From Anaeramoeba flamelloides (lineage: Eukaryota > Metamonada > Anaeramoebidae), in NCBI GenBank assembly GCA_027625915.1, contig JANTQA010000026.1, positions 6,014,001-6,078,000 on the forward strand: a stretch of 64,000 nucleotides of DNA, read 5' to 3'. Position numbers and translations under genes: made by a program. Below the pieces are notes generated by a model. The model made no database searches. It had not been told where the DNA came from and saw only the letters and a program-made list of their open reading frames with translations. This document shows, piece by piece, positions 9,520 to 52,085 of the stretch. The stretch's first letter is position 1. The number at the start of each line of letters is the position of its first letter.

Positions 9520-12500
9520 TTATTTGATTTTGTAGTTATAAATTCTAATAACAAAAGTTAATTGGTTATTTAATTCTTTTAAAAGAAAATTTTTATTTGG
9601 TTTTTTTCGGTATTCTTTTATTATCTTATATAATCTGCTTCGAAGAAATAATAAATGTTCCACTGTAAAAGATTTTGTGTTTTGAATTACTGTTTTTTTA
9701 AATTTTTTATATACATCCATATCAATAATTATATCTTGGATTTCATCATCATCACTATCATCATCATCATGTTTGGTCTGATCATTCTTGGTTGTAATTT
9801 GGGAATTTAATTTAATTTCTTTTTCAGAATTTAGACCTTGAATTTCTTCATTTACTTTATGATTATCATTTTCATTTTCAATTATAATTTCCATTTCTTT
9901 TTGATTTTCCTTTTTTTCTTCTTTTTCTTTTTCCTTTTCCTTTTTCTTTTCTTCTTCTTCTTTTTGTTTCCCCATTTCTATTTCCCTTTCTCTTTCTTTT
10001 TCTTCTTTTTCCTTTTCCTTTTCATTTTTTTCAGTTTTTTTCTTTTCTTTTTCAATTTCTTTGTCTTTTTCATATAATTCAGTCTTTTCTTCTTCATTTA
10101 TGTTTTCATTAGTTTGAATATAATTTTTGGTTTCATTTTCCTTTTCATTTTCCTTTTCAGTTTCTTTTTCTTCTTTTTCTTTTTTCTTTTCTTTTTCAAT
10201 TTCAATTTCTTTTTCTTTTTCAATTTCTTTTCCCTTTTCATATATTTCAGTCTTTTCTTCTTCATTTATGTTTTCATTAGTTTGGATATCTTTTTTAGTT
10301 TCATTTTCCTTTTCCTGATCGTTTTCATTTTCTAAGTGTAAATTATTTTCAGTGTTCTCGTTATTTTTTACAATTTTAGGGAATTGTTTGAATTCAAAAG
10401 TAAAAGAATAATTCCCCACTTTTTCCTTGGTGGGCTTTGATTCCTTGGCTCTCCTGATTGCAATTCTATTACATTTTTCTAATAATTCTGGTTCTAATAA
10501 GGCAATCAATGAATCTAAGGCTTCAATCATCCATGTGACTTTTCTGTTTATTTGATTGTAATTTTTCCAACCTTTGAATGTTTTTGTGTTTTGTTTAATT
10601 AAATGCACATCCTTCAAAAAATGGTTTAAGCATAAATATTCTTTAGAATCGATTTTATCATGTATGGTAGTAAAATCAATTGGACAATCAATTTGATAAT
10701 AATATTCTGGATAAATATTAGGATTTACGGGATCAAAAAACATTTTGAATTTCTTTTGGTCAGATAATTTTTGAACTAAATCCTTTAATACAAATCGAAA
10801 TTCTTTCAAATATATTTCTTCTTCGATACGTATCTTTCTTTCAAGGTGTTTTTTCCTTTTTTCTCTTAATTCTTCTTCAAGGCGAATTCCAGTTATTTCA
10901 AGTTTCTGTTGCTCATTTTTCGTTAAGCCATAATTTAAAATTGATTCTTTTAACATTTTTTTCCGTTTTTTTAGCAGTTGCTCCCTGGTGATAGGTGGCT
11001 TTTTAATTTCTTTAAAAATGGATTTATAAAAATTTTTTCTCTTTAATTTGTTTGGTGCAACTATGGAATAAGAATTGAATTTTTCCGAGAACAATTCACT
11101 TATATCTTGATCTAATTCTTCAAGTGGAATTTCGCATGTGGCTAATAATAAAATAGGTGTTGAGGATGGTATTTCTTTTAATAACGTGAGAAAGGTTTTT
11201 TTGGCGAGGGACAAAATGAAATTTTCAGATAGGCATTCTATATTTGGAATAAAAATTACCGATGGAATTGTTCTCAGTGCTTCTGAAAAATGAATAGTAA
11301 AAACTTCTTCGGGATTCCGAGTTGTTAGATCACCGACAATAGATTGCAAATTGATTTTATAGATTGTTGCTTCGTCAAGTTCATGTAAAATTGCATTTGC
11401 TAAATAATTTTGTCCACAATTTGTTTCACCATAAATTAATAATCTGGGTCTATAATGTGTGTTTTGAAATCTAGATAATTTATTGATTAAATTTTCAGAA
11501 TAATCATTTTCACAATTCATCATTTGCTCTTCTTCTTCAATTTGTTTCCAAATTTCATCAGAACTAAAATTATCCAAAATATCTTCATCATCTTCATCAT
11601 TTTCATCATTATTATGACTATTTATATTACTATTACTATTACTATTATTATTATTATTATTGATATTACATGTTTCCTTTTGATTAAAATTTTGTGAATT
11701 ATTAACAAGAATTTGATTTTGTATATTATTATTATTATTCTTTGAATTTAAGGTTCTTTTTCTTTTTAATATTTGTTGTTTTTCAATAATTTTTTCAATT
11801 TCATTACTAGATAAATCAAAATTATTCTTTAAATTATCCTTTTTATCTAATTTATTTCTATTACGTTTTCTTTCATTTTTTAATTTTTTTTCTAAATAGA
11901 CTGGGAAAATTTGTTCTAACATTTTGAATAAATATTCTAGATCCTCTTGCAATAATGGTTTCAAAATATTGGATAAAGGCTTTGTGGTTACAAATCCACT
12001 CCTATGAGAAGAAGGTACAATATTTTTCATTGCCTCAAAAAAATCTTGTTTGGTGATTACAATTTTATTAATATCAATTGGTAGTTTGATTTCAGCATGA
12101 TAAATTTGTGGATAAACTCTTCGAACCGCTCGAAGTGCTGCTTCAGTACATAAAGATTTTATATCTGCACCACAATAACCAACAGTTAATTTTACAATTA
12201 AGTTTTTAAAATCTTCATTCAATGGTGGGTTCCAGTGTTTTGTGTGTATTTCCAAAATTTCCTTTCTTCCCTCCTTATTTGGTAATGGGAATAGCATTTC
12301 TCGATCAAATCTTCCTGGTCTTCTTAAAGCTGGATCAATGGCATCCGGTCTATTTGTTGCTCCAATTACAACAACATTACCTCTATCATCTAATCCGTCC
12401 ATCATTGAATTATGAATAATTATTGGTTGATCGTTTCCTGCGATAAAATTTTCATTTTCAGTACAGAGATCATACATTTTATGAATACCTTTTAATTTTA

Positions 12501-15500
12501 TTTTTGAAATGATTGATATAGGAATTATTTCTTCTTCTTTATTTTTGATTTCTTTGTTTTTTTGATTTTGAAATTTTAAAATTAACTTTTTCAACATTTC
12601 ATTATGATTAGAATCATAATAATTATAAAATACTTTTTTTAATTCATTTGGTAATAATGAAATAATTATCGGTATTTTATTATTCTGGGTATTGTTGTTA
12701 TTATTTGGAATGTTGTTGTTGTTGTTGTTGTTTTTATTTGAAAACCAATTTATTTTAAAGATTGTTTTTATAAATTTTAATATTGTAATATTTTTAAATG
12801 TATTACTTATTTTACCAAAAATCTTAAAAATTAATTTTTTTCCAAACGCTTTTAATAAATTATTTTTCAAAATGATACCATTTAATTTGGAAAATTCAAT
12901 AGATTTTAAAATTAATGAAATTAAAATAATTAATTCTTTTGAATAATATTTTGGTAATTTTAAAAATTTTTTAGTATTTTTATATTTAAATTTTGTAAAA
13001 TTATTGTTAAAAATCCATTTGCTTTGAGAATTTTTTTTCTCAAGTTTTGTAATATTTATATTAAGTTTATTAGGTATTGCTATTTGATCATTAATTTTAA
13101 TATCTTTAATAAAAATCCATTTCCATTTATTATTTAATTTTTCATTTTCTTTTTTATTATTATAACTGCAATTAATGTTATAATTATGGTTTTTACAATT
13201 ATTATTATTCTCATTATTATTCTTTATTAATTTCAAGAGTTTTGTGTTTTCCGAACAAATCAATTGACAATTATTTTTCAAAATAATTTTAATTGGATTT
13301 TTAATAAAAGTTTTAGAAATGGCTTTAATTTGGCATTTTTCCAAAGTATTATTTATTTTATTTTTACTATAAATTTTTAAATTATTATTAATTTTTTTAA
13401 TTTGTATTTTTTCTCCGATGGGATTAATAAAATTATTCTTTCTTGAATTAGTTACTTTCCATAATTCTTGTATTTTAATAATTTTATTTTTCAAATATAT
13501 TGAAGTGTCTTTATGTAAACATAATAAAGTACTAACCACCGAACTATGAATTTGATCTTGTTTCGAAGATCTGACTGGTGCCAATCCATCGATCTCATCA
13601 AAAAATATAATTGAAGGTTCATATTTTTTAGCATTTTCAAACAATAACCTTAATTGTCTTTCTGCTTCGCCAATCCATTTGGATAAAATATCAGATCCCT
13701 TACGCATAAAAAATGAAATTTTTTTACCTTCTTCGCTCATACAAGAATTAGCCAAGGCTCTTGCCACAAGGGTCTTACCAGTACCCGGTGGACCAGTAAA
13801 TAGCATGCCCCGAGGTGGCTTGATCCCAAATTTTGTAAAAACCTGTGGGTATAGCAAAGGTAACATCACAACTTCCTTTAGTGCTTGTATATGCTTTTTT
13901 AGCCCCCCCACCGAATTAAAGGAAACAGTCTTGTCAATCCTTATAGGATTAACATCAATTGATTGATTTATTGAACTTTTGGAAATTAATTTATCTTGAT
14001 CAGATTTTTGGCTATTGGGGAATTTTGTTCTTGAATTATTATTTAAATTTGCAAAGGAAGTCGTTGTAGATGTTGAATTCTGAGTCTTTGATTTGGGTAA
14101 TTTTTTTTTCATTTTTTTAAAATGTGAACTTAAAGTCTTTTCCAATCTATTCAATTTTGATAAATAATATTTTGTAAAATTTTCAGGTAACAATTCAAGC
14201 CCCTGAAGATCGAAAGTGGTTAGATCACCTAATGAGGACAATGGTTTTTGTTGTTGATAGAATTGTTGGTAATAATTCATTTGAGAATATGGATCATTTA
14301 GAAATTGTGTTGATGGTTGTAAAATATTATTTTCGTTAATTAATTGTGGAGATAGCTGTGGTATTGACGACTGTGGCTGTGTTAATTTATTTACATTGGT
14401 ATTGTTAGTACTAATATTACTTGATCGATTGATTGTTGTTGTTGTCTGAGGAGACATTGATTTGGTAATATTTTGTTGCGGAGGCGGTGGTGTGGTAGTG
14501 TTGTTGAGATTTGGATTTGTTGTTAGTGGTATTGTTGATGTTGGCGCCGTTGTTGTTGTGTTTAAAAGATTTGGTTTTGAAATTTTTTTGATTTTGGATC
14601 TTGTCATAATTCCTCTTGTTTGATTGGTTGTAATATTTGGATCGATCCACCGATTTTGTTCATAAAATGTCTTTGTCTGTTCAGTTATCGATGACTCGTA
14701 TGCCCTGAGACTATTTCTGGTGTTTCTTCTTGATCTAGTATTATAATTTCTTAAAATGGGTTGATTTAAATTGTTTTGATTCGTCAAATTCATCAACTCA
14801 TGCTGAAGGTCGTGTAATTCTTCATTTCTGTTTAAAGTTAACTTGTCTTCCAAAAGATCGATTTCATCTTGTTCAGAAATTGAATCATTAATCTCAAAAT
14901 CAGAAACGTCAGACTCCTCTTGATAAAACATTGAACTCGTGACTGAAGATGCACGATCTCGATCCTTAGATCTTGTTTTTCTATTCTTTGTTGCCTTGAT
15001 AAAATATTTTTTTTTAAACACCTTCATTTTATTTTGTGGCTTTTTTCTGTTTCTTCGGCTCCTCCTTCGGGTCTCGTCTCTTCTCAGTCTATTGTTTTTT
15101 CTTCGGTACTCGTTATTTTTGGATTCATTTAATTCCTCATAATCATCAAAAATTTCGTTGTCAGAATACGAATCAGTATCTGTTTCTCCAGATGGTTCAA
15201 ATGAATCGGAACCGTCATTCTTTTTTTTGGCTTTTGGGTGAGTATTTTTTTCATCACTAATTGTTTTGTTAGACTCTTCTTCTTCTTCTTTTTCTTTTTC
15301 ATTTTCATTTACTTGTTTTTCTTCTTCTTCTTCTTCTTCTTCTTCTTCGGTCACATTTATTTCATCAAGGTGATTGTCAAAATTATATGATTGTGTTCGA
15401 CGGGAACCTCTCCTAAGGCTATACCTTTTTTCAGGATAATCATGTGATCTTTCAGGTTTTCTATTTGTTTTTTTTTGGTTGTTGTTTCTTGTTGAAGTAA

Positions 15501-15840
15501 AAGACGACGAAGACTGTTCACTACTTGGGTAGTTCTCGTCCTTGGAAGAGGAAAGTTGTGACATGCTTTCATTATAAGAACTTTCAGAATTTTCTGATTG
15601 TTGCTTTTTTTTGAGATCCCTTCTGCCTCTGTTTCTGCTTCGATTCCTACTTCGACTCCTACTGCCTCTACGACTGCTGCTTCGACTGTCTCTATGGCTG
15701 ATACTTCTTCTTCTTCCCTTTCTTTTTCTTCTTCGATTATTTGTAACCTTTTTTGGAGATGAATAACTTGGCTCAAATTCACTTTCTTCACTTTCATCAC
15801 TTTCATCAGAGGGCGGCGAAAAACTGCTTGACTGAGACAT
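9520..15840 (-). CDS. ATAD2/Yta7-like AAA ATPase with bromodomain, containing an intein
   Basis: A chromatin-associated AAA ATPase of the ATAD2/Yta7/Abo1 type (2106 residues before splicing, about 1735 after). I start it at the ATG at 15840 (MSQSSSF...). The frame is open a further 79 codons upstream, but that part reads like AT-rich leader. Order: acidic, Ser/Arg-rich N-terminus; AAA1 from about 639 with GPPGTGKT (Walker Lys689), FFDEIDG (D748, E749), VIGATNR sensor (N1163) and RRPGRFD; an inactive AAA2-like domain with GETNCGQN in place of Walker A (Q1477 where Lys is expected), as is usual in this family; a bromodomain at about 1680-1790; and a Lys/Glu-rich tail with two similar ~55-residue units. 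The intein (residues 774-1144) splits AAA1 between STLL and SMMDGLDDRG, normally contiguous. The family remodels or disassembles nucleosomes. The usual acetyl-lysine-binding Asn of the bromodomain aligns with Lys1756. Confidence 0.9.
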   Translation of the reverse strand: MSQSSSFSPPSDESDESEESEFEPSYSSPKKVTNNRRRKRKGRRRSISHRDSRSSSRRGSRSRSRNRSRNRGRRDLKKKQQSENSESSYNESMSQLSSSKDENYPSSEQSSSSFTSTRNNNQKKTNRKPERSHDYPEKRYSLRRGSRRTQSYNFDNHLDEINVTEEEEEEEEEEKQVNENEKEKEEEEESNKTISDEKNTHPKAKKKNDGSDSFEPSGETDTDSYSDNEIFDDYEELNESKNNEYRRKNNRLRRDETRRRSRRNRKKPQNKMKVFKKKYFIKATKNRKTRSKDRDRASSVTSSMFYQEESDVSDFEINDSISEQDEIDLLEDKLTLNRNEELHDLQHELMNLTNQNNLNQPILRNYNTRSRRNTRNSLRAYESSITEQTKTFYEQNRWIDPNITTNQTRGIMTRSKIKKISKPNLLNTTTTAPTSTIPLTTNPNLNNTTTPPPPQQNITKSMSPQTTTTINRSSNISTNNTNVNKLTQPQSSIPQLSPQLINENNILQPSTQFLNDPYSQMNYYQQFYQQQKPLSSLGDLTTFDLQGLELLPENFTKYYLSKLNRLEKTLSSHFKKMKKKLPKSKTQNSTSTTTSFANLNNNSRTKFPNSQKSDQDKLISKSSINQSIDVNPIRIDKTVSFNSVGGLKKHIQALKEVVMLPLLYPQVFTKFGIKPPRGMLFTGPPGTGKTLVARALANSCMSEEGKKISFFMRKGSDILSKWIGEAERQLRLLFENAKKYEPSIIFFDEIDGLAPVRSSKQDQIHSSVVSTLLCLHKDTSIYLKNKIIKIQELWKVTNSRKNNFINPIGEKIQIKKINNNLKIYSKNKINNTLEKCQIKAISKTFIKNPIKIILKNNCQLICSENTKLLKLIKNNNENNNNCKNHNYNINCSYNNKKENEKLNNKWKWIFIKDIKINDQIAIPNKLNINITKLEKKNSQSKWIFNNNFTKFKYKNTKKFLKLPKYYSKELIILISLILKSIEFSKLNGIILKNNLLKAFGKKLIFKIFGKISNTFKNITILKFIKTIFKINWFSNKNNNNNNNIPNNNNNTQNNKIPIIISLLPNELKKVFYNYYDSNHNEMLKKLILKFQNQKNKEIKNKEEEIIPISIISKIKLKGIHKMYDLCTENENFIAGNDQPIIIHNSMMDGLDDRGNVVVIGATNRPDAIDPALRRPGRFDREMLFPLPNKEGRKEILEIHTKHWNPPLNEDFKNLIVKLTVGYCGADIKSLCTEAALRAVRRVYPQIYHAEIKLPIDINKIVITKQDFFEAMKNIVPSSHRSGFVTTKPLSNILKPLLQEDLEYLFKMLEQIFPVYLEKKLKNERKRNRNKLDKKDNLKNNFDLSSNEIEKIIEKQQILKRKRTLNSKNNNNNIQNQILVNNSQNFNQKETCNINNNNNNSNSNSNINSHNNDENDEDDEDILDNFSSDEIWKQIEEEEQMMNCENDYSENLINKLSRFQNTHYRPRLLIYGETNCGQNYLANAILHELDEATIYKINLQSIVGDLTTRNPEEVFTIHFSEALRTIPSVIFIPNIECLSENFILSLAKKTFLTLLKEIPSSTPILLLATCEIPLEELDQDISELFSEKFNSYSIVAPNKLKRKNFYKSIFKEIKKPPITREQLLKKRKKMLKESILNYGLTKNEQQKLEITGIRLEEELREKRKKHLERKIRIEEEIYLKEFRFVLKDLVQKLSDQKKFKMFFDPVNPNIYPEYYYQIDCPIDFTTIHDKIDSKEYLCLNHFLKDVHLIKQNTKTFKGWKNYNQINRKVTWMIEALDSLIALLEPELLEKCNRIAIRRAKESKPTKEKVGNYSFTFEFKQFPKIVKNNENTENNLHLENENDQEKENETKKDIQTNENINEEEKTEIYEKGKEIEKEKEIEIEKEKKKEKEEKETEKENEKENETKNYIQTNENINEEEKTELYEKDKEIEKEKKKTEKNEKEKEKEEKEREREIEMGKQKEEEEKKKEKEKEKEEKKENQKEMEIIIENENDNHKVNEEIQGLNSEKEIKLNSQITTKNDQTKHDDDDSDDDEIQDIIIDMDVYKKFKKTVIQNTKSFTVEHLLFLRSRLYKIIKEYRKKPNKNFLLKELNNQLTFVIRIYNYKIK
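12409..13521 (-). other. Intein inside the ATAD2-like AAA1 domain
   Basis: A 371-residue in-frame insertion with intein hallmarks. Block A starts CLHKDTSIYL (Cys774). The block B region has KIILKNNCQLICSENTKLL; the usual TxxH reads S863-E-N-T866. WIFIKDIKINDQIAIP resembles the conserved 'W..v.di..GD.i..P' stretch. Block F is MYDLCTENENFIAG. Block G ends IIIHN (His1143-Asn1144), followed by Ser1145 as the +1 nucleophile. Removing it restores the uninterrupted AAA second region of homology. The central part has two LAGLIDADG-like helices without the acidic residues (about 969-985 and 1064-1080) and a poly-Asn stretch, so the homing endonuclease looks dead. A spliceosomal intron is unlikely: 371 codons without a stop in DNA this AT-rich, no AG at the 3' junction, and clear motifs at both ends. 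Confidence 0.88.
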
Positions 15841-20983: not shown

Positions 20984-21475
20984 GTAGAGTGCCGGCAAGT
21001 GAAGAGCTTTTCCAGAATTCACAAGAATCGAGAAAAACCAAAGATTTTATTCAATTCTTTTAAATACTGAAAAAACTAACGACTGTTTTCTTGAATTTTT
21101 GAAATAAACAGAAAAGTAAATAATTTTTCAATTTAATACATAAAAAAAAAACCTAACGTGAAGTGCCGTCAAGTGCCTAGCTTTTCCATAATTCAAAAGA
21201 ATAGAGAAAAATCAAAGATTTTACTCAATTCTTTTAAATTCTGGAAAAGCTAACGGCAGTTATTTTTAATTTGAGAAATAAACCGAAAATTAAAGAAATT
21301 TTCGGTTTATTTCTCAAATTAAAAAAAACCTAACTTAAGTTTCGTCAAGTGCCTAGATTTTACTCAATTCTTTTAAATTCTGGAAAAGCTAACGGCGGTT
21401 TTTATTGCTTTTTTTTTTTGATTAGAAAATCAATAGATTTTCGAAACAAAAACAAAAAGTAAAAAAAACCTAACG
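20984..21475. repeat. Tandem triple array of a two-hairpin element
   Basis: Three diverged units of about 140-175 bp each open with AGTGCCGKCAAGTG-like sequence. Hairpin 1 pairs AGCTTTTCCATAATTCAAAAG (21179-21203) with its complement at 21227-21251. Hairpin 2 in the middle unit is a perfect 29-bp inverted repeat (21263-21291 with 21297-21325) around a 5-base loop. The units are joined by AAAAACCTAAC(GT). Single decayed copies lie at 2190-2430, 3350-3475 and 32250-32415. No coding capacity. A foldback-type element or a structured RNA-producing repeat are both possible. Confidence 0.75.
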
Positions 21476-21733: not shown

Positions 21734-24700
21734 TTACATTTCATCATTTTGTGTCAAATAGTAAATTTGTGTATGGAAATCGAATTTACTCAAAGGTTGT
21801 AATATTTTTGTTAATTTGCTAAAACGTTTTTCAAACCACTTTTGGTCATAAATAATTTTTTTTTTTAAATGAAGATAATTATCTTTTAGTGCACTAAAAA
21901 ATGTATCCAAGTGTTTATCGTCTAAGCACCATATAAAAAAGGCAATGATTTTCTTTTTCCAATCAAGATTATCAATTTTTTGTTTATTAATTTCCATAAC
22001 CGATTGGCTAATCCAGTTGTAATAGGGGTTTTTCTTTAATCTTTTTACTTTCACAAATATTTCAAGTAAATTCCAGATTGTGAATTTTTTTTGATCAACT
22101 TTCAAACCAAAAGATAATGCGGAAAGTAAATGTGGGAAAAAATTTAAATATAATATTTTTGATAATTCTTCATCTTTTTGAGCATTTCCGAATTGTGCTT
22201 TTAATTTTTTTAATTTTTTGTCATTGTCCATTTGATCAAATCCCAAATCTAAATTGGTGTTAGTGTTCGTGTTGGGATTTAAGTTGGGATCAGAGTCAGA
22301 ATCTGTGTCAGATTTGAGATCAGAATCAGTGTCGGATTTGAGATCGGAATCGGTTTCGGATTTGAGATCAGAATCGGTGTCAGCATCGTCAGAATTATTC
22401 TCATTATTTGTATTATTTTTTTCGTTCTTATTGTTATTTTTATGAATAAGAATATGATTATTTTTGTTTTTTTTAATTTTTTTTAATTTCAAAATCTTTT
22501 TTTTAAGAATAAACAAATAATTCACAATTTGTACAACGTCCTGTTGTAATAATGATATTTTTGTAGGAATTATTTCTGATGGTGGGTAAAGAGTATTAAT
22601 AAAGTTTTTTTGGCCAATTTCAACCACTGGGAATTCCTGAACAATTAAAAATTGATCTGCAATTTTTTGTAAAATGCTTACGATTTGTTTGACAAAGGAA
22701 ATCTGATATAATTTAGATTGTGGTAAATAAAACTTTTCTAATAATTCTTTGTTTTGATGTATTTCACTGAGGTAATCAATAATTTTTAAATTATTGAATA
22801 AATTCTGTATTAATAAAATATCTTTAATTAAAAAATGTTCTGATTCGTTTCTATCCTTGAAAATTTGTCTTTTTAATTGGCGGATAATTGATAATACAAT
22901 TTCTTTTTTTTCTGTTTGTTCAAATATTTCCAAAATTGTTGTTTTTTCATCAACTTTATCACGATTCAAGATATGGTATAATAATTTTATAATATTTGAA
23001 ATTTCAGAATTGCATGACTGGATTTTAATGAAAGTACCATTTTTGCTGATAAATCTTTTTTTTTCTTCCGTGTTTATTCGTAAAACTTTGTAATTTACCT
23101 TGATTTTTTTTAATAATTCTTCATATCCCAATGGTTCAAGATCAACATTTTTAAACTCAATTATTTCAAATTCGTTTTCATTTCCAGTGGATTCAAATGG
23201 GTTTTCTTGTTTATTTTTTTGGTAAATATCAGATCCAAAATTGTCTTTAAGATCATTATCAAATTCTTTATTTGAATCGTCATCTATTAGATATAAATTT
23301 AGTTTATTTTTTTTATTTTTATCCTGTGTTTTTTCGTTTACAGTCTCTTGATCTTTATCTTGATCTTTCTCTTTCTCTTTCTCTTTCTCTTTCTCTTTCT
23401 CTTTCTCTTTCTCTTTCTCTTTCTCTTTCTCTTTCTCTTTCTCTTTCTCTTTCTCTTTCTCTTTCTCTTTCTCTTTCTCTTTCTCTTTCTCTTTCTCTTT
23501 CTCTTTCTCTTTCTCTTTCTCTTTCTCTTTCTCTTTCTCTTTCTCTTTCTCTTTCTCTTTCTCTTTCTTCTTCTCCTTCCCCTTTCCCTTTTCTTCTTCT
23601 TCTTCTTTTTCTTCTTTTTCTTTTTGATTTTTATTTTCCAATTTTTTGATCTTCTTTATTTCCTTTTGTCTTGAATTAATTATTAAATTTGAATTATCTG
23701 GTTCTTTATGTTTGATCAATAATTGCTTTTCGTTTTGTGTTTCATAATTCTGTGAATCTAAATCTTTTTTTAATTTTATTAAATAATTCAAAAAATCATT
23801 TTTATTCATTTTTTCATTCAGAGATAATTTATTAATTTTTTGTTGAATTTTATTAAGGAGTATTTGAAAATTTTTTTCATTATTTAAATTAGTAATTTCA
23901 TTTTTTAAATTCTTTATTTCATCGTTTTGATTATTTAAATCTTTTTTTAATTTTTCAATTTGATCAACTTTTTCCTTTTCCTTGTCATTTTTTTTCTCAT
24001 ACTTTTTTTCCTTTCTGTTATCTTCATCTAAATCTTCCATTGACTTCTCTGGATACTGTTTTGATTGTTTTATTCCTTTTGGTTGTATATTATCATCATC
24101 GTCATCATTAGTGGTAGTAATATTTAGCTCTTTTTCCTTTTCATTTTCTTTTTTTTTTTCTTCTTCTTCCTCTCCTTCTTCTTCACCTCCTTCTTCTCCT
24201 TCTTTTTCTTTTTCTTTTTCTTTACCATTATCTTTGGCATTGTTTTTTTCTAAATTTAACTTTTGGAATTCTTTTTTTTCCAGGTTATCATCATTTTCAT
24301 TTATATTTAACTTGGGATTGTTTTTAATAAACACTTTTTTAATTTTTTTCTTTTCAATTTCTTCAGTTAAGTTATTAAAATTTATTTCTAATTCTATAAT
24401 TTCATTTTTAATATTTTGAAAAAAATCATCCTCATTATCATTATTGGTCAATAAATTGATATTAAAATCTTTTTTGAATTTATCATTTAAATTCTTGATA
24501 GATAATCCATATATATTTTTAGGTGATTTAAGATTTTTATTCAGATTTTTTTCAATTAATTCTTCAATTAACTGTTTTTTGTCAATTAAATCATTTTTTA
24601 AATTTTGATATTCATTTTTTAAGTCATTTAATTCATTGTTTAAATCGTCTTTTTGTCCATTATTTGAGTGTTTTATACAATTGCTTTCAATTTTTTTTAA

Positions 24701-26409
24701 TTTTAATTCTAATTTATTTTTTTCAATTGGTAATTCTAAATGATTTAAGATTTTTTTTAAAATTTTATTCAATTCAATATTTAATTCATTCACTTTTAAT
24801 TGATTAAAAGTCTTCAATAAGACCTTATTATCATTCATGGTATTTTGTAATTCTTTTAGAATTATATTTAATTTTTTTTTAATTTTTTTTTTGATATTTG
24901 AAATTAATTCAAATTTTTTTTCAATTGTTAAATCTAAAATTCCATTGTTAGTGGTCATGCTGTTATTATTCTTGTTGTTGTTGTTGTTGTTGTTGTTGTT
25001 AAGGTTGTAGTTTTGATTTTCTTTTTTATTAAATAATTCCGGTTTTATTCTTTTCAATAATAAAATTAATTTTAAAGAAATCTCATTCAAATTATATGTT
25101 TGATTAAAAGTTTTTGAATCATAATTTTTAATTTTGATTTTTTTTTCAATAATATTTTTATTTACATGAATCATCTCTTGAAATATTTTTTCGTGTGTTT
25201 CATTGTGAAGCCCATTATTCAAATCATGATTAATTTTAAATTGGTTAATTTTTATATTCATTTCTTTAATTTCTTTTTCAATTTCTTTTAATTCTTTGTT
25301 AGTTGATTTTGCAATTAAATATTGCTCAAATGATAAATCGAGTTTTTTTAATTTTGAAATCCAATACTCAGCATTTTTTGCATTATATTTTCTGTTGCTC
25401 CAATTAATCAAAATATCAAGAGGAAGATTCAAACCCTTTGATTTCAGATTGTTGACGATTGAAATCAACAATTTTGGATCATCGATTTTTGATAAGGGAT
25501 CGATCCATTTCTTTTCTTCGATAATTAAATTTAGTTCACCTGTTTGTGACAAGTCATAATTACATTTTTCAATTAATGCTAACAATAACGGATCAGAGCC
25601 ATTTTGGAGGAGAAATTTTAAAAAGATTCCTTCTTTTTTTTCATTTCTGATGATCGGGAAATCTTTGACAGTTAAATTGCCCTGTTTTAAGGAATTAAAG
25701 AGAATTATTTCGGGGCTTTCAGACTTTATGAATTTTTTGATAATCGGATAATTCTTATCAACTTGCTTTCTTAGCGAGAGCACTGTTTTTAATGCAGAGT
25801 GCCACTCTTCCAATGTGGGCTGATCTTCAAAGTTTATGTAATAGACCCGATCTTCAACTTTGATATTTAAAGTCCTTTTTTGAATGTTCATCTGAAAGGT
25901 TTTAATTAACCCAAGCTTAATGCTCCCCTTTTGTTCCTTGTTTAACGGACTCAAATAATAGTTTAGTGTAAAGTCTGTTAAAACAAACCATCTTTTTCGT
26001 TCAGCCTTCCAGTTCTTCCCTTTTTTGTTTCCATACCCACAAAAACGAATAATCTCATTTGTGCCTTCTTTTGGGAGTTTGTGTGAGGGGAAAGCTACAA
26101 CACACCCTTTAAATATTTTTTTTTTTTTAGTTTTGGTTTTGTTTTTGTTTTGTGAGTTTAATCGATTTTTTTCTTGTTTAGTTGTTTTTTTTCTTTTTTT
26201 TTTTTTTGATAAAAAGAGAAATTACCAATTCTCCAATTTTTAAACCAACACTCAACAAATTGCGGTTTGTTAGAATTGTCAACTACAATGGTAGTCCCAT
26301 GATAATTTATCTCTTGTTCTTCGTGAGAGAAGTGGTAACGTTTTATACTTTTGTTTCCAAAGTTTTCTATTGTGCTTATTAAATCCCTTTTAAAATTAAA
26401 AAGATCCAT
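21734..26409 (-). CDS. PH-domain, coiled-coil, RUN-like domain protein
   Basis: Two-exon model: exon 1 26409-26226 (ATG at 26409), intron 26225-26095 (131 nt, GTAATT...TAG), exon 2 26094-21734; 1514 residues. The junction keeps frame (Ala62 codon split G|CT). A PH domain follows at about 78-170, with GYGNKKGKNWKAERKRWFVL, then YYLSPLNKEQKGSIKL and the conserved Trp159 (LEEWHSAL), suggesting phosphoinositide or protein binding at membranes. Residues ~300-1000 are mostly coiled coil, with a perfect (Lys-Glu)n tract encoded by a CTTTCT hexamer array (about 23366-23568). The last ~155 residues resemble a RUN domain (FFPHLLSALSFGLK, IWNLLEIF, IWCLDDKHLDTFFSAL), a module that binds small GTPases. 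The combination suggests a GTPase effector in membrane traffic or cytoskeleton. Exon 1 beyond the PH domain is unrecognised. The RUN call is moderate. Confidence 0.75.
23366..23568. repeat. Hexanucleotide (CTTTCT)n array, coding (Lys-Glu)n
   Basis: About 33 near-perfect copies of CTTTCT on the plus strand, read as alternating Glu and Lys codons in the PH/RUN gene. The same hexamer, as AAAGAG, recurs at about 50213-50249 in the RCC1-BTB gene. Confidence 0.9.
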
Positions 26410-42435: not shown

Positions 42436-44857
42436 ATGAAAAGTTTAATTACTGCACTTGAGTTGAATAACATTGAAAAATTAAATGAAGCAATCAACGA
42501 AGGTTTTCCTGAGAACTCGTTTACTGGGGGCACGAATCCCTTACACTTAGCAACATGGTATAGCTGCGACGAAGAAATTTTTGACAAGTTAGCCAAAATG
42601 GGTTTATCACCATTAACCAATGAACCAGACGACACTGGCAAAACTTGCCTCCAATACGCAGCACTTAGAGGATCAAAATTACATGTCTGGGAATGGTTAT
42701 TAGAAAATAATGGTGATCCAAATATTGGAATAGATTCTGATTATCCAGTCTTATCTACAAGCATTTCTTCAAAACTAAGTCACGAAATAATTAGCTTGTT
42801 ATTAAGTAAAGATGCCAAATATAATATTAATAAAGTAAATTTTTTTAACAATTCAAATCAAAAAAAGAAAAAAAAAGCCAAAAAGAAAAAGAAGAAAAAA
42901 CAACAACAACAAAAAAAAAAAAAAAAAACAAAAATTTTTTTCTGAATTCTTTTTATTTTTTGAATTTTTTCTCTTTGTTTTTTAAAAATCAATTTTTTAT
43001 GTTTGAATTGACTTAATACTCAAAAATTAAATATTTACATCTTTTTATAAAGGAGGATCAAAATTCGCTTTTACACTTAGCAATTGGGTGTGGATCTGAA
43101 ATAAATACTCTGAAAGAAATTATTAACAAATTTCCTGAACAAGTTCATCATGTAAACAAAATGGTTTGTGTTTTCTTCATTTAGATTTTTTTATATTTTT
43201 TCGCCTTTATTTTTCTGATACAGTGCTACAAAAAAAACAGTTCAAAACAAAAACAAAATTAAAAAAACAAAAGCAAAAATAAAAAGAGAAAACAAAAAAC
43301 AAAAAGAAAAAACAAAACCTCTCCATTTTAAAAATAAAAAAAAAAATTAAGGTTGCAATATAAAGAAGTAACTTTATTCTTTGAATAGAGCTGTTTCAGA
43401 ATTTACATTAGATTTGAATGTTTTTCTGTCAAAACAAAAAGTTTCCACTGTTTCAAAAATACAATTAATAAGTACTAAAATAAAAGGAATAACTCCTGCC
43501 GACATTCTATTAAAAAAAAAAACAACAACAACAACAACAAAATAACAAAATAAAGGGTTTAACACCGTTCCTAATGGCATGTAAAAAAAAATCAACATTT
43601 GAAGTTATTAAATTATTAATTGAATCCGGATCAAAAGTGGATGTTATTTCTAAAATTAAAAACACATGTTTGCATTATTTGTGTAAAACAAAGCCCGATC
43701 CCAAAATCATTGAAATTGTCTTAAAATTGGGTGTTAATCCGAATTTAGAAAACATGGGCAAACGAACGTGTTTACACTTAGCCATTATGAATAACGCGTG
43801 TTCTGATGCTATTGGCATGCTATTAATCCATGGCGCCGATCCAAGTCTCTGTGACTCCTTTAAGCAGACTGCGTTACACTACTCATACCGATCCAATTTG
43901 GAGGCCGTTGGTGTTCTTTTAAAGCACAAGAAGGCCGATGTTACAAGCCTAAATGTGTGGTTAGACACACCACTGTATGTGTGCATCCTCAACCAGGCAG
44001 ATACACAGATCTTGTTGTTATTGCTCAGGGCAGGCTCTGATCCAAATTTCATTGGCAATAATGGGAACAATTCGATCCATCTCTTGATTGAAAGCGAATA
44101 CCCAATTGAAGCGTATATCTTATTTTTGAAATATAATGCAAAAATGACAATCACAAACAAAGAAGGTTTCACACCAATTAACCAACTCCCATTTGAATTA
44201 AGAAGCATCCACGATCATATGTATTGCCTTCGTGGAGATCTACTTTTACTTTTAAAACTCAATTTAGGCGATTCGTTAATCCAATGCTCAGATTCCATCA
44301 AAATTAATTTTTTTAAAGCAATTCTTTTACAGAGAACGAACAGCCAAGATCTGAATTCCTTAATTTCAATTTTAGAAAAGCACAATTTTGAGACTGTTAA
44401 TAACTTTTTAAAATACATCTATGGTGGTCTTTTGCCCGCAGAAAGCGAGTTGAAAAAAGAAATTGTTCAGCTAGGAACGCAATTGGGGTTAAAGGAAAAG
44501 GATTTTGAAGGAGATCTTTATCAAAAATTGTTAGATGATCTCTCACGATTAAGGGAAAATGAAGAAACAATGGATTTTAAAATTGTTGTTCAAAACAAGA
44601 CATTCCCCATCCACAAGTTTATTTTATTGGCTAGAAGTAAATTGTTACTTGGTTTAGAAATGTCTTCGAAAGCACCACTGTCTCAATACCAAGAAACAAA
44701 GGATTTCCCACCTCAAGTGATAAACCATTTGATCAATTTCTTGTATACACAAGATATGGAAATTAAATATTCATCAGAAATCAAAAATCAAATGAAAATT
44801 GCTATTAGTCATTATTTATTAAATCCAAATAATGTACTTTCCCAATTATTAAAATAA
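42436..44857 (+). CDS. Ankyrin-repeat protein with C-terminal BTB/POZ domain
   Basis: Three-exon model: 42436-42834, 43053-43163, 43556-44857. Introns are 218 nt (GTAAAT...AAAG) and 392 nt (GTTTGT...AAAG), both phase 0; 603 residues. Ankyrin repeats fill roughly residues 1-370. Examples are GTNPLHLATWYSC, DDTGKTCLQYAALRGS, the repeat completed across exon 2 (EDQNSLLHLAIGCG), exon 3 start GLTPFLMACKKK, and KRTCLHLAIMNNA. After them a half-BTB-like segment (FETVNNFLKYIYGGLL...LGLKEKDF) precedes a better BTB domain from about 505 (MDFKIVVQNKTFPIHKFILLARSKLLLGLE). BTB domains dimerise and often recruit Cullin-3 ligases, so a substrate-adaptor or scaffold role is plausible but not shown. Without splicing, exon 1 would run into a poly-Lys tail and exon 2 would be lost; the ankyrin consensus across both junctions supports the model. 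Confidence 0.87.
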
Positions 44858-49709: not shown

Positions 49710-52085
49710 ATGCTAAAAAATAATGTTCGTTCATTTGGAACAAACAAGAATGGGTATTTAGGATTTTCACAATCAAACAATGATTTCATCAACTTTGTGT
49801 GCCCACCGCTTTTCAAAAACGAAAATTATCAGTTGTTTAGTGAACAAACAAATGGGATCAATCTGTGCTTACGTGACAATGGGAAAGTAATTGCTTTTTA
49901 TCCGTTTCTGTTGCAAAAACGATCGTTACATTTTCCCAAACGAGTCAAAAAGATAAGTTCTGGAGTAAGACATCATCTTGTTCTTGACGAAGAAGGATCA
50001 ATTTATTCTTGGAGGAACGGGTACCATTACTCTTCTACTTCTGGAGAATTGGGTCATGGCAATTTGTCTTGTGTTTGTGTTCCTAAAAAAATTAAATTTT
50101 TTAATCAACAAAGAAAAATCACAAATCAAAATACAAAAGAAAAAGAAAAACAAACGAAGAATCAAAAGACAAAAGAAAAAGAAAAACAAAAGAAAAACAA
50201 GAAACAGAAAGAAAAAGAGAAAGAGAAAGAGAAAGAGAAAGAGAAAGAGACAGGGATGGAAAAGAAAATTCTTCAATCAAAACCAAAAACAATTGCTTGT
50301 GGGCCCTTTCAATCCTTTGTATTATTTAAAAACGGTGATTTGTATGCTTTTGGTGATGGAAGAACGAATTCGATTGGCTTTGGCGAGTTTAAAATCCAAT
50401 ACAAGCCAAGGCTGTTATCAAGAAACGTGTACAAAATCTTTGCGTCACCATTTAATAATCATTTTGTGTATCAAAAATTTGATGACACCTTTTATGCCTT
50501 TGGCAACAACTTTTTTACTGAGTGTGGCATTCTAAATTCCGAAAAGAATGTCTCGACACCACAAATGATCCCATTCCTCTCGAAAAAGAAAATCCAAAAC
50601 ATATGCCTGTGTAACAAAAAGACTTACGCCTTGGATGAAAACGGGGTTATTTATCATACAAAGCAACACTCTTATAACTCCTTTACCAACAAAGACATTC
50701 ACAAAGAAAACATCTGGTGCGTGATCGATCCCAAGATCCTCGGCGTGGGGCCAATCGAAAAAATGCGTGACGCGTACAACATCTTAATCTTTCTTACCAA
50801 AGACAACCATTTTTTTATAGTCGGCGAGCATGATTTGAATGTCGGGCACCAAGTCAACAATTGCTATGAAAACTTTAAGATACGGATTACAAAATTATCT
50901 TTTAAGTTGCCAACGAATATTGAAATAGACAAGATTTGCCATAGCTCGAATTTTTCAATCTTTTTCATTTTAAAAAAATTATCAATCCAGATCGATTTAT
51001 ACAATCTATTTTTAAATTCGATTCTCACAGATTTCAAAATTAAAGGAATAAAGACACATTTACAATTAATTCTTTGCAGAACTAGAGTGTCGAAAGAGGA
51101 AATCATTTTAACTTTGAAAAGGTTTAATAGAATTGAAATACACACTTGGCTAAAATGGATTTATTCAGATTATTTAGAAGAAATCGATCCAATTTCTCAG
51201 ATTTGCGAAAGCTTTGGGATTTATGATTATAAAACAAAGTGTATTAAAGACGATTTAAAAGACCTGTGGCTAAATTCTTCAAAATCCTTTGATTTTATTA
51301 TTTGTGTAAATAGTAATCAAAAGAAACGACGAAGAGTAATGGAAATGGAAACGAAAGGGAGAAAGGGAAGGATAAGAAGAAAGGAAGGAGAAGAAGATAA
51401 AGAAGAAGAAGAAGATAAAGAAGAAGAAGAAGAAGAAGAAGAAGAAGAAGAAGAAGAAGAAGAAGAAGAAGAAGAAGAAGAAGAAGAAGAAGAAGAAGAA
51501 GAAGAAGAAGAAGAAGAAGAAGAAGAAGAAGAAGAAGAAGAAGAAGAAGAAGAAGAAGAAGAAGAAGAAGAAGAAGAAGAAGAAGAAAAGGGAGGAGAAG
51601 AAGAAAAGAAAAAGGAAAAGGAAAAAGAAAAAGAAGAAAAAAAGGAAATTAAAAAAGAAATTGATATTGAAATGGAAATGGAAATGGAAATGGAAATTGA
51701 TAATCAAAATGTAGATGAAAGTGAACTAATTGAAATACCAGTGCACCGTTTCATACTTTCGGCAAGATGTAAATTTTTTCGTCAACTATTTTTAAAAAAA
51801 GGAAACAATCAAGAAAAACAAACTTCAACTTCCAATAAATGGGTTTATACATCAAGTATAGCACCTTCCTTGATAGAAAAGGCATTATATTCTTTATATA
51901 CAGATGAATTAAATTATACTAAATCTGAAATTCCTTCACTATTGAAAATTGCGAAGTTTTGGGGGGTTTCAAAGGATTCATCTCTTGGCAAATTAATTAA
52001 AAAAGAAAAAATTGAAATTAAAAAAAAATTTTTACAAAAAAATGAAATTTCAAAATCAACAGAAAATAAATGTATATGTTTTTAA
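49710..52085 (+). CDS. RCC1-repeat protein with C-terminal BTB/POZ domain and poly-Glu insertion
   Basis: A single-exon 791-residue protein. RCC1-like beta-propeller blades lie in about residues 1-400: VRSFGTNKNGYLGF, GVRHHLVLDEEGSIYSW, CGPFQSFVLFKNGDLYAFGDG and DDTFYAFGNNFFTECGI. A Lys/Glu-rich loop lies between blades. A half-BTB-like segment (WLKWIYSDYLEEI) then leads to a BTB domain that starts at SFDFIICVN (D528) and resumes at EIPVHRFILSARCKFFRQLF (H679). The ~140 residues between include 56 consecutive Glu codons (571-626), where other BTB proteins have a short turn. The chain ends NKCICF, a CaaX-type prenylation motif. The architecture parallels the ankyrin-BTB protein upstream, so both may be adaptor or scaffold proteins, but no partner can be read from sequence. 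The ATG follows an A/T-rich leader, and the first blade begins at once. Confidence 0.87.
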   Translation: MLKNNVRSFGTNKNGYLGFSQSNNDFINFVCPPLFKNENYQLFSEQTNGINLCLRDNGKVIAFYPFLLQKRSLHFPKRVKKISSGVRHHLVLDEEGSIYSWRNGYHYSSTSGELGHGNLSCVCVPKKIKFFNQQRKITNQNTKEKEKQTKNQKTKEKEKQKKNKKQKEKEKEKEKEKEKETGMEKKILQSKPKTIACGPFQSFVLFKNGDLYAFGDGRTNSIGFGEFKIQYKPRLLSRNVYKIFASPFNNHFVYQKFDDTFYAFGNNFFTECGILNSEKNVSTPQMIPFLSKKKIQNICLCNKKTYALDENGVIYHTKQHSYNSFTNKDIHKENIWCVIDPKILGVGPIEKMRDAYNILIFLTKDNHFFIVGEHDLNVGHQVNNCYENFKIRITKLSFKLPTNIEIDKICHSSNFSIFFILKKLSIQIDLYNLFLNSILTDFKIKGIKTHLQLILCRTRVSKEEIILTLKRFNRIEIHTWLKWIYSDYLEEIDPISQICESFGIYDYKTKCIKDDLKDLWLNSSKSFDFIICVNSNQKKRRRVMEMETKGRKGRIRRKEGEEDKEEEEDKEEEEEEEEEEEEEEEEEEEEEEEEEEEEEEEEEEEEEEEEEEEEEEEEEEEEEEEEKGGEEEKKKEKEKEKEEKKEIKKEIDIEMEMEMEMEIDNQNVDESELIEIPVHRFILSARCKFFRQLFLKKGNNQEKQTSTSNKWVYTSSIAPSLIEKALYSLYTDELNYTKSEIPSLLKIAKFWGVSKDSSLGKLIKKEKIEIKKKFLQKNEISKSTENKCICF
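51420..51587 (+). repeat. (GAA)56 trinucleotide tract in coding sequence
   Basis: Uninterrupted in-frame GAA codons encoding 56 Glu within the BTB domain of the RCC1-BTB gene. Impure GAA/GAT/AAA codons flank it on both sides. Confidence 0.95.

Follow-up and report, generated by a model that had tools for sequence, protein, structure and literature searches.

A 64,000-nucleotide stretch of the genome of the anaerobic amoeba Anaeramoeba flamelloides (contig JANTQA010000026.1, positions 6,014,001 to 6,078,000; hereafter the window) raises the question of how a nuclear gene for a chromatin AAA ATPase of the ATAD2/Yta7 type can carry 371 additional codons within its first AAA domain, and where these codons came from. 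Based on sequence comparison and a structure model, we are highly confident that the segment is an intein of the type found at the CDC48 site in archaea and that it is fixed in the ATAD2 genes of this amoeba, and we infer that it splices.

The host gene occupies positions 9520–15840 (minus strand, like all features of this gene given below) as a single frame that begins with ATG and holds 2106 codons with the intein, or 1735 post-splicing. Pfam finds AAA, AAA_lid_3 and Bromodomain in the protein, the last at residues 1687–1758 (10570–10785; PF00439, E 1.6e-12), and its best relatives among solved structures in the PDB are ATAD2, S. pombe C31G5.19 and YTA7. With an AAA domain and lid, a bromodomain and this nearest kinship, the protein is an ATAD2/Yta7 ATPase; a second, degenerate AAA domain was recognised by eye. 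In the first AAA domain, Walker A (GPPGTGKT, 13771–13794) and the Walker B octet (IIFFDEID, 13588–13611) can be read directly, and the insert starts 22 codons past the octet. A preliminary description of this DNA had placed 371 in-frame codons just past Walker B, splitting the AAA stretch between STLL and MMDGLDDRG, and both points hold in the 2106-residue frame.

The insert (12409–13521) is free of stop codons and reads CLHKDTSIYL...MYDLCTENENFIAGNDQPIIIHN; its extein flanks are ...HSSVVSTLL on the N side and SMMDGLDDRGNVVVIGATNR on the C side, where the AAA sequence resumes with SMMDGLDDRG. Its open length is not a matter of chance, because all 2000 simulations of the insert (first-order Markov) held at least 19 in-frame stops (mean 35.5), with no open run longer than 141 codons. 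From intein residue 1 (residues 1–96) it matches the TIGR01445 intein_Nterm profile, which is matched in all 13 rows of the family alignment (E ≤ 1), and a structure model predicts a Hint fold. The N-terminal part of the Hint domain, with blocks A and B (residues 1–153, 13063–13521), is modelled mostly at predicted local distance difference test (pLDDT) values of 79–93 outside an Asn/Lys-rich loop (residues 102–129, 13135–13218; pLDDT < 50) that varies between copies in a seven-copy alignment, and the C-terminal part, with blocks F and G (residues 329–371, 12409–12537), at 82–94. Between them, residues 154–328 (12538–13062; pLDDT nearly all < 50) align with the endonuclease part of the archaeal inteins and are the remnant of a LAGLIDADG homing endonuclease whose motif acidic residues are lost.

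Searching the 254-Mb genome (G000, with the window on contig C26) with the insert returned seven ATAD2 loci, on C26, C76, C75, C34, C9, C48 and C57; a search with the C-extein returned the same seven at 82–100% identity, followed by 12 remoter AAA matches at 43–48%. All seven copies hold an open, homologous intein of 371–428 residues inserted at one and the same codon, and each has Cys1, MYDLCT, His-Asn and Ser+1; no inteinless ATAD2 copy was found among the seven loci. The earlier proposal, that a nuclear ATPase resembling ATAD2/Yta7 carries an intein, is thus borne out by the intein_Nterm match, the predicted Hint fold and the ranking of ATAD2 and YTA7 with the closest solved structures.

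The preliminary description also called for a comparison with inteinless homologues. Among the best 120 matches of one search, which are not a random sample, 111 of 118 other homologues carry the motif uninterrupted at this site: 107 read VSTLL then Ala, one reads VSTLL then Ser (P0096) and three read VSQLL then Thr. Of the seven without the motif, P0011 is uninterrupted and reads VTQLLT, and the other six carry a CDC48-site intein there. The insertion keeps the frame, and most relatives have the conserved host site uninterrupted.

Splice residues and the block B histidine

All seven copies have the junction residues expected of an intein: Cys1 (13519–13521), the N-terminal nucleophile, invariant in 13 of 13 aligned rows; the C-terminal block G His-Asn (12409–12414); and Ser+1 (12406–12408), the C-extein nucleophile. 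Nearly all uninterrupted ATAD2-type relatives examined have Ala at the +1 position, where the amoeba copies have Ser in 7/7; host and intein are thus matched at this position, because Ala there could not serve as a nucleophile.

The catalytic set of a standard intein is present only in part: Cys1, His-Asn and Ser+1 stand, and the histidines of blocks B and F are absent. Block B reads SENT (13243–13254), with Ser at B:7 (13252–13254) and, at B:10 (13243–13245), Thr in place of the usual His, which a passage of PMC4031507 describes as the most conserved intein residue. Instead of the Thr-x-x-His of class 1 inteins, Ser-x-x-Thr occurs in all 16 distinct CDC48-site relatives compared and in all seven amoeba copies, always with Lys or Arg as the next residue. 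The block F His is also replaced, by Ser in archaea and by Glu (before NF) in the amoeba, while the block F Asp (F:4, in MYDL, 12469–12471; invariant in the family alignment) and the block G His-Asn are kept. Inteins that splice without the block B His are reported in PMC4031507 and, as a group of several, in PMC7664689. Because His-less inteins have been described as splicing, membership as an intein stands, but membership as a standard class 1 intein does not.

The Tko CDC21-1 intein, whose host CDC21 is an MCM protein, offers a comparison. It is likewise reported, in a passage of PMC4031507, to be functional without the block B His, and it compensates through Lys58; in our reading of the alignment, the counterpart of this residue is not conserved in the ATAD2/CDC48-site family. 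Compensation of the Lys58 type is unsupported here, the equivalent place being Gln or Lys in the seven copies, and most archaeal rows having an aromatic residue there. Candidates for activating the N-terminal junction are the Thr-Lys pair and Lys70, which is invariant. With 23 natural variants in hand, how inteins start splicing without the block B His is now testable.

In the splicing pathway that these residues suggest, the intein would be translated together with its host and fold as a Hint domain. The N-extein, which ends in Leu, would be transferred to Cys1 and from there to Ser+1, the first step running without the usual block B His and with the conserved Thr-Lys/Arg at that place family-wide. 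Cyclisation of the C-terminal Asn, aided by the penultimate His, would free the intein, and ligation would restore ...VSTLL-SMMDGL... and the AAA domain, giving the joined-extein tryptic peptide QDQIHSSVVSTLLSMMDGLDDR.

Kinship with archaeal CDC48-site inteins

The six homologues mentioned above are CDC48-type proteins that bear an intein at exactly the same point. A pattern-based scan of the genome collection with an alignment of the six returned six loci, in Woesearchaeota (2), Pacearchaeota (1) and Aenigmatarchaeota (3). The same-site intein is rare, with 4 of 156 genomes in the G006 phylum and 3 of 371 sampled genomes in the G001 phylum at E ≤ 1e-60, tallies that count the seed genomes and for which few candidates were scored per genome. 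The 16 distinct CDC48-site inteins compared comprise seven DPANN-named records (L021–L026 and P0125), two from the same phyla (L083, L084) and seven others (P0012, P0014, P0015, P0016, P0029, P0124 and P0126); P0128 and P0129, from which the full intein could not be cut, are excluded.

The DPANN inteins share with the ATAD2 intein the insertion residue (archaeal pattern [SA]Q[LMI]L–C...HN–T.MDG, junctions at the dashes), Ser-x-x-Thr-Lys/Arg in block B, M[YF]D[LM]TT...NF in block F, the HN end and mutual profile matches. They differ in having CDC48 as host, a length of 551–565 residues, winged-helix and LAGLIDADG parts, Thr at +1 and, within block F, TT..SNF where the ATAD2 intein has CTENENF.

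Profiles built from the two Hint parts separate these relatives from other inteins. The ATAD2 Hint N profile gave 24.7–52.4 bits for all 12 archaeal same-site rows, compared with at most 3.7 bits for 11 other Anaeramoeba inteins and 11.3 bits for an archaeal CDC48 intein inserted elsewhere; the Hint C profile gave 29.6–42.5 bits for the same 12 rows, compared with at most 12.7 bits for 10 other Anaeramoeba inteins and 9.6 bits for the other-site archaeal intein. In these tests the boundaries of L013, L014, L051 and L054 are approximate, and L013 was dropped from the C part. The 12 archaeal rows include an identical pair (P0017/L021) and a near-identical pair (P0029/L022), and five of them (P0012, P0014, P0015, P0016 and P0029) are not among the DPANN-named records. 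In the reverse direction, archaeal profiles scored the ATAD2 copies at 38.7–46.5 bits (N) and 39.5–49.6 bits (C), with best other scores of 23.9 and 20.4. In a control set of 60 DPANN intein loci, scored as single-domain bits and not independent (overlaps, halves of one intein), the N model gave 30.4 and 32.1 bits for two complete same-site inteins, 8.4 and 7.3 for two truncated ones and at most 9.4 for the other 56; the best other-site score under the C model was 13.3. Thus, same insertion residue and specific profile kinship both place the ATAD2 intein with the DPANN CDC48-site inteins, although full-length models are blurred by the endonuclease parts.

The endonuclease has fared differently in the two groups. 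Archaeal members have winged-helix-like and LAGLIDADG parts, and the six archaeal rows of alignment A3 keep acidic residues in both motifs; the aligned motifs of the amoeba copies lack them (LISDG in archaea versus LILKS in the window copy, and LLEGD versus WFSNK, the second aligned with low certainty). LAGLIDADG_3 is matched in 6 of the 13 rows of A3, as many rows as are archaeal, and the window intein has neither a Pfam match nor an intact LAGLIDADG endonuclease. Because the aligned motifs lack acidic residues, homing is probably dead in the amoeba copies. Because the archaeal rows retain acidic residues in both motifs, the block B change seems to characterise a functioning lineage and not to result from decay.

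From these sequences, we take the ATAD2 and archaeal CDC48-site inteins to be one lineage. We further lean, with some reserve, towards a fuller account: a single lineage may sit at the same AAA residue of two paralogous proteins, CDC48 in DPANN archaea and ATAD2 in a eukaryote, and so span two domains of life; it may have replaced the block B His with Thr-Lys/Arg in every member seen, splice through a different activation of the N-terminal junction, and have outlived its endonuclease as an obligate passenger of all ATAD2 copies. It would have entered the amoeba horizontally: with its LAGLIDADG endonuclease still intact, the ancestral intein would have reached the ATAD2 site most likely from the CDC48 gene of a DPANN-like archaeon, a transfer suggested by the conservation of the AAA target. 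Decay of the endonuclease would have followed, with the intein inherited vertically through the duplications that yielded the seven ATAD2 copies. Because the site is the same residue of two paralogous ATPases, the passage of inteins from archaea into eukaryotic nuclei becomes open to test.

Other sources were considered. The amoeba's own CDC48 (p97) was checked as a possible local donor: five p97-like loci among the 12 remoter AAA matches (L065–L069, named by eye) read VSQLLTLMDGL and are inteinless; the other seven have no MDG motif in the fetched stretch. No viral carrier was shown among the viral contigs, where the archaeal alignment matched four loci, confined to query residues 250–445 in the endonuclease part, and the mixed alignment matched none. 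A homologue search with the intein region of P0012 returned 10 proteins including the query, nine of AAA/CDC48 type and one with MCM domains. A search of the protein database with P0001 alone returned no match at E ≤ 1, probably because complete hosts lie outside the length limits and the sequence is of low complexity.

Retention in seven copies and alternative readings

Pairwise comparison of the seven copies gave ratios of nonsynonymous to synonymous substitution (dN/dS) of 0.23–0.42 for the intein (Nei-Gojobori, 21 pairs, 325 gap-free codons) and 0.01–0.17 for the flanking AAA pieces where dS is unsaturated. By intein part, median dN/dS is 0.23 for Hint N, 0.30 for Hint C and 0.40–0.45 for the middle. 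In close pairs dS is of similar order within and outside the intein (C26–C76, 0.19 versus 0.22 and 0.33), and the intein tree and the flank tree have one common unrooted topology. This pattern fits vertical inheritance through duplications and selection to retain splicing. Splicing would be the simplest explanation for a tightly constrained AAA domain that is interrupted in every ATAD2 copy found. The seven duplicated copies show that an intein can persist after its endonuclease has decayed. In the C57 copy (L046), the Hint N loop is expanded to ~85–90 residues, nearly all Asn or Asp, with the splicing blocks intact.

Several observations weigh against an intein of this lineage that splices. 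(i) The intein_Nterm score of the window copy, 22.5 bits, lies under the curated cut-off of 24.5, and a Pfam scan of the window insert gave no match. (ii) The alignment behind the structure model included archaeal inteins. (iii) With the block B His changed to Thr and the block F His absent, splicing could be slow or conditional. (iv) Under single-domain scoring with the N model, P0017/L021 falls to 7.9 bits (29.9 whole-sequence). (v) The full-length archaeal model ranks the other-site CDC48 intein P0042 (67.5 bits) over all seven ATAD2 copies (29.1–55.5 bits), and scores an Anaeramoeba RPB1-type intein (38.1 bits) above one of them; in our view both scores probably stem from the endonuclease parts, because Hint-only models reverse the order. 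(vi) A tree of the remaining C-terminal extein positions C9 and C57 differently.

The missing block B and block F histidines, the decayed endonuclease and poly-Asn loops of widely differing length could instead mark a degenerate intein of Hint descent that no longer splices, leaving ATAD2 permanently interrupted and altered or inactive. We regard this as improbable. The same Thr is present in all 16 distinct CDC48-site inteins, and its appearance predates the endonuclease decay, because archaeal rows with it retain the acidic motif residues in both endonuclease motifs; moreover, the junction residues are kept in all seven copies, and the median dN/dS of Hint N is well below that of the middle, with still lower values in the flanking AAA pieces.

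Slightly less probable still is that ATAD2 acquired the intein as a copy from a different intein-bearing gene of the same amoeba, the likeness to archaeal CDC48-site inteins being convergence at a shared site. The genome is indeed rich in inteins: intein_Nterm matched at 30 places at E ≤ 10, 23 of them over the cut-off, a lower bound, with the window's intein not among them. However, the other Anaeramoeba inteins compared, an incomplete set with four approximate boundaries, score far below the archaeal same-site rows under both Hint profiles. Finally, a spliceosomal intron, open by accident and cut from the mRNA, has nothing in its favour beyond the segment being an insert and can be rejected: GT/GC–AG pairs within 60 nt of the ends restore the host exactly in 0 of 7 copies, 0 of 11 frame-keeping pairs in the window copy preserve both STLL and MMDGL, near misses in C75, C34, C48 and C57 leave 3–11 surplus residues, and purifying selection at the codon level and the predicted Hint fold speak against it.

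Earlier reports, other inteins and neighbouring genes

The suggestion that host and site might be new does not hold. The C34 copy of the same ATAD2 gene family, with the same intein by eye, is already deposited at NCBI as 'intein-containing tat-binding precursor [Anaeramoeba flamelloides]'. Inteins of this genus are the title subject of a 2023 PNAS paper by Gallot-Lavallee et al., cited by a 2025 paper. The 2023 study reportedly counts tens to about a hundred of them per strain, with which the intein_Nterm matches in the present genome agree. An intein in Anaeramoeba ATAD2 is therefore already known, the gene family being deposited as intein-containing and Anaeramoeba inteins being published; the present analysis adds the kinship with archaeal inteins of the same site and the loss of the block B His throughout the lineage. 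Neither was found in the literature on inteins of Anaeramoeba, ATAD2, CDC48 and DPANN, as represented by titles, abstract openings and some passages, the text of the 2023 paper apart. In the passages covered, the main text of a 2018 intein survey contains neither 'AAA' nor 'CDC48' (PMC5784728), and PMC11550330 has no occurrence of 'intein'. Classical nuclear inteins (PRP8, VMA1, RNA polymerases, ThrRS, GLT, CHS) are likewise nuclear-encoded and of Hint fold, but their hosts differ.

Among the other inteins of the amoeba, Pfam identified hosts in eight scanned loci as MCM (3), RPB2, an RPB1-type subunit, family B DNA polymerase and an epimerase, with none for L048; a PRP8 host (L052) was recognised by eye. 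An RPB2-type gene on C29 (L004 and L054) apparently has a frame of 1799 codons with two inteins, of which the second scores 20.7 bits, below the cut-off, yet ends with clear blocks F and G. The intein of an MCM gene (L001, of which L002 and L003 are copies) has Thr-Lys at the block B His position and keeps the block F His; among the amoeba inteins outside ATAD2, its Hint N part scores highest against the archaeal CDC48-site profile (23.4 bits). The displayed block B alignment excluded L014, L051, L054 and C57. Inteins of an RPB1-type subunit, an MCM gene and a family B DNA polymerase (L006, L010 and L018) seem to start with Ser, not Cys. L048, L049 and L050 are three divergent copies of a large protein, each with an intein, and the block B His is present in L048. 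In the small DPANN genomes G005 and G178, intein_Nterm has 25 matches each at E ≤ 0.001, several inside single frames.

PADLOC gave no match. Elsewhere in the window, a frame of 1385 residues at 21734–25891 (minus strand) is without a Pfam match and holds a long hexanucleotide repeat (23344–23625). Other genes encode a Rap-GAP protein (273–1673), an ankyrin-BTB protein (43574–44857) and an RCC1-BTB protein (49710–52085). A 174-bp tandem repeat occurs twice at 20988–21361, and a third, partial copy appears by eye to follow it.

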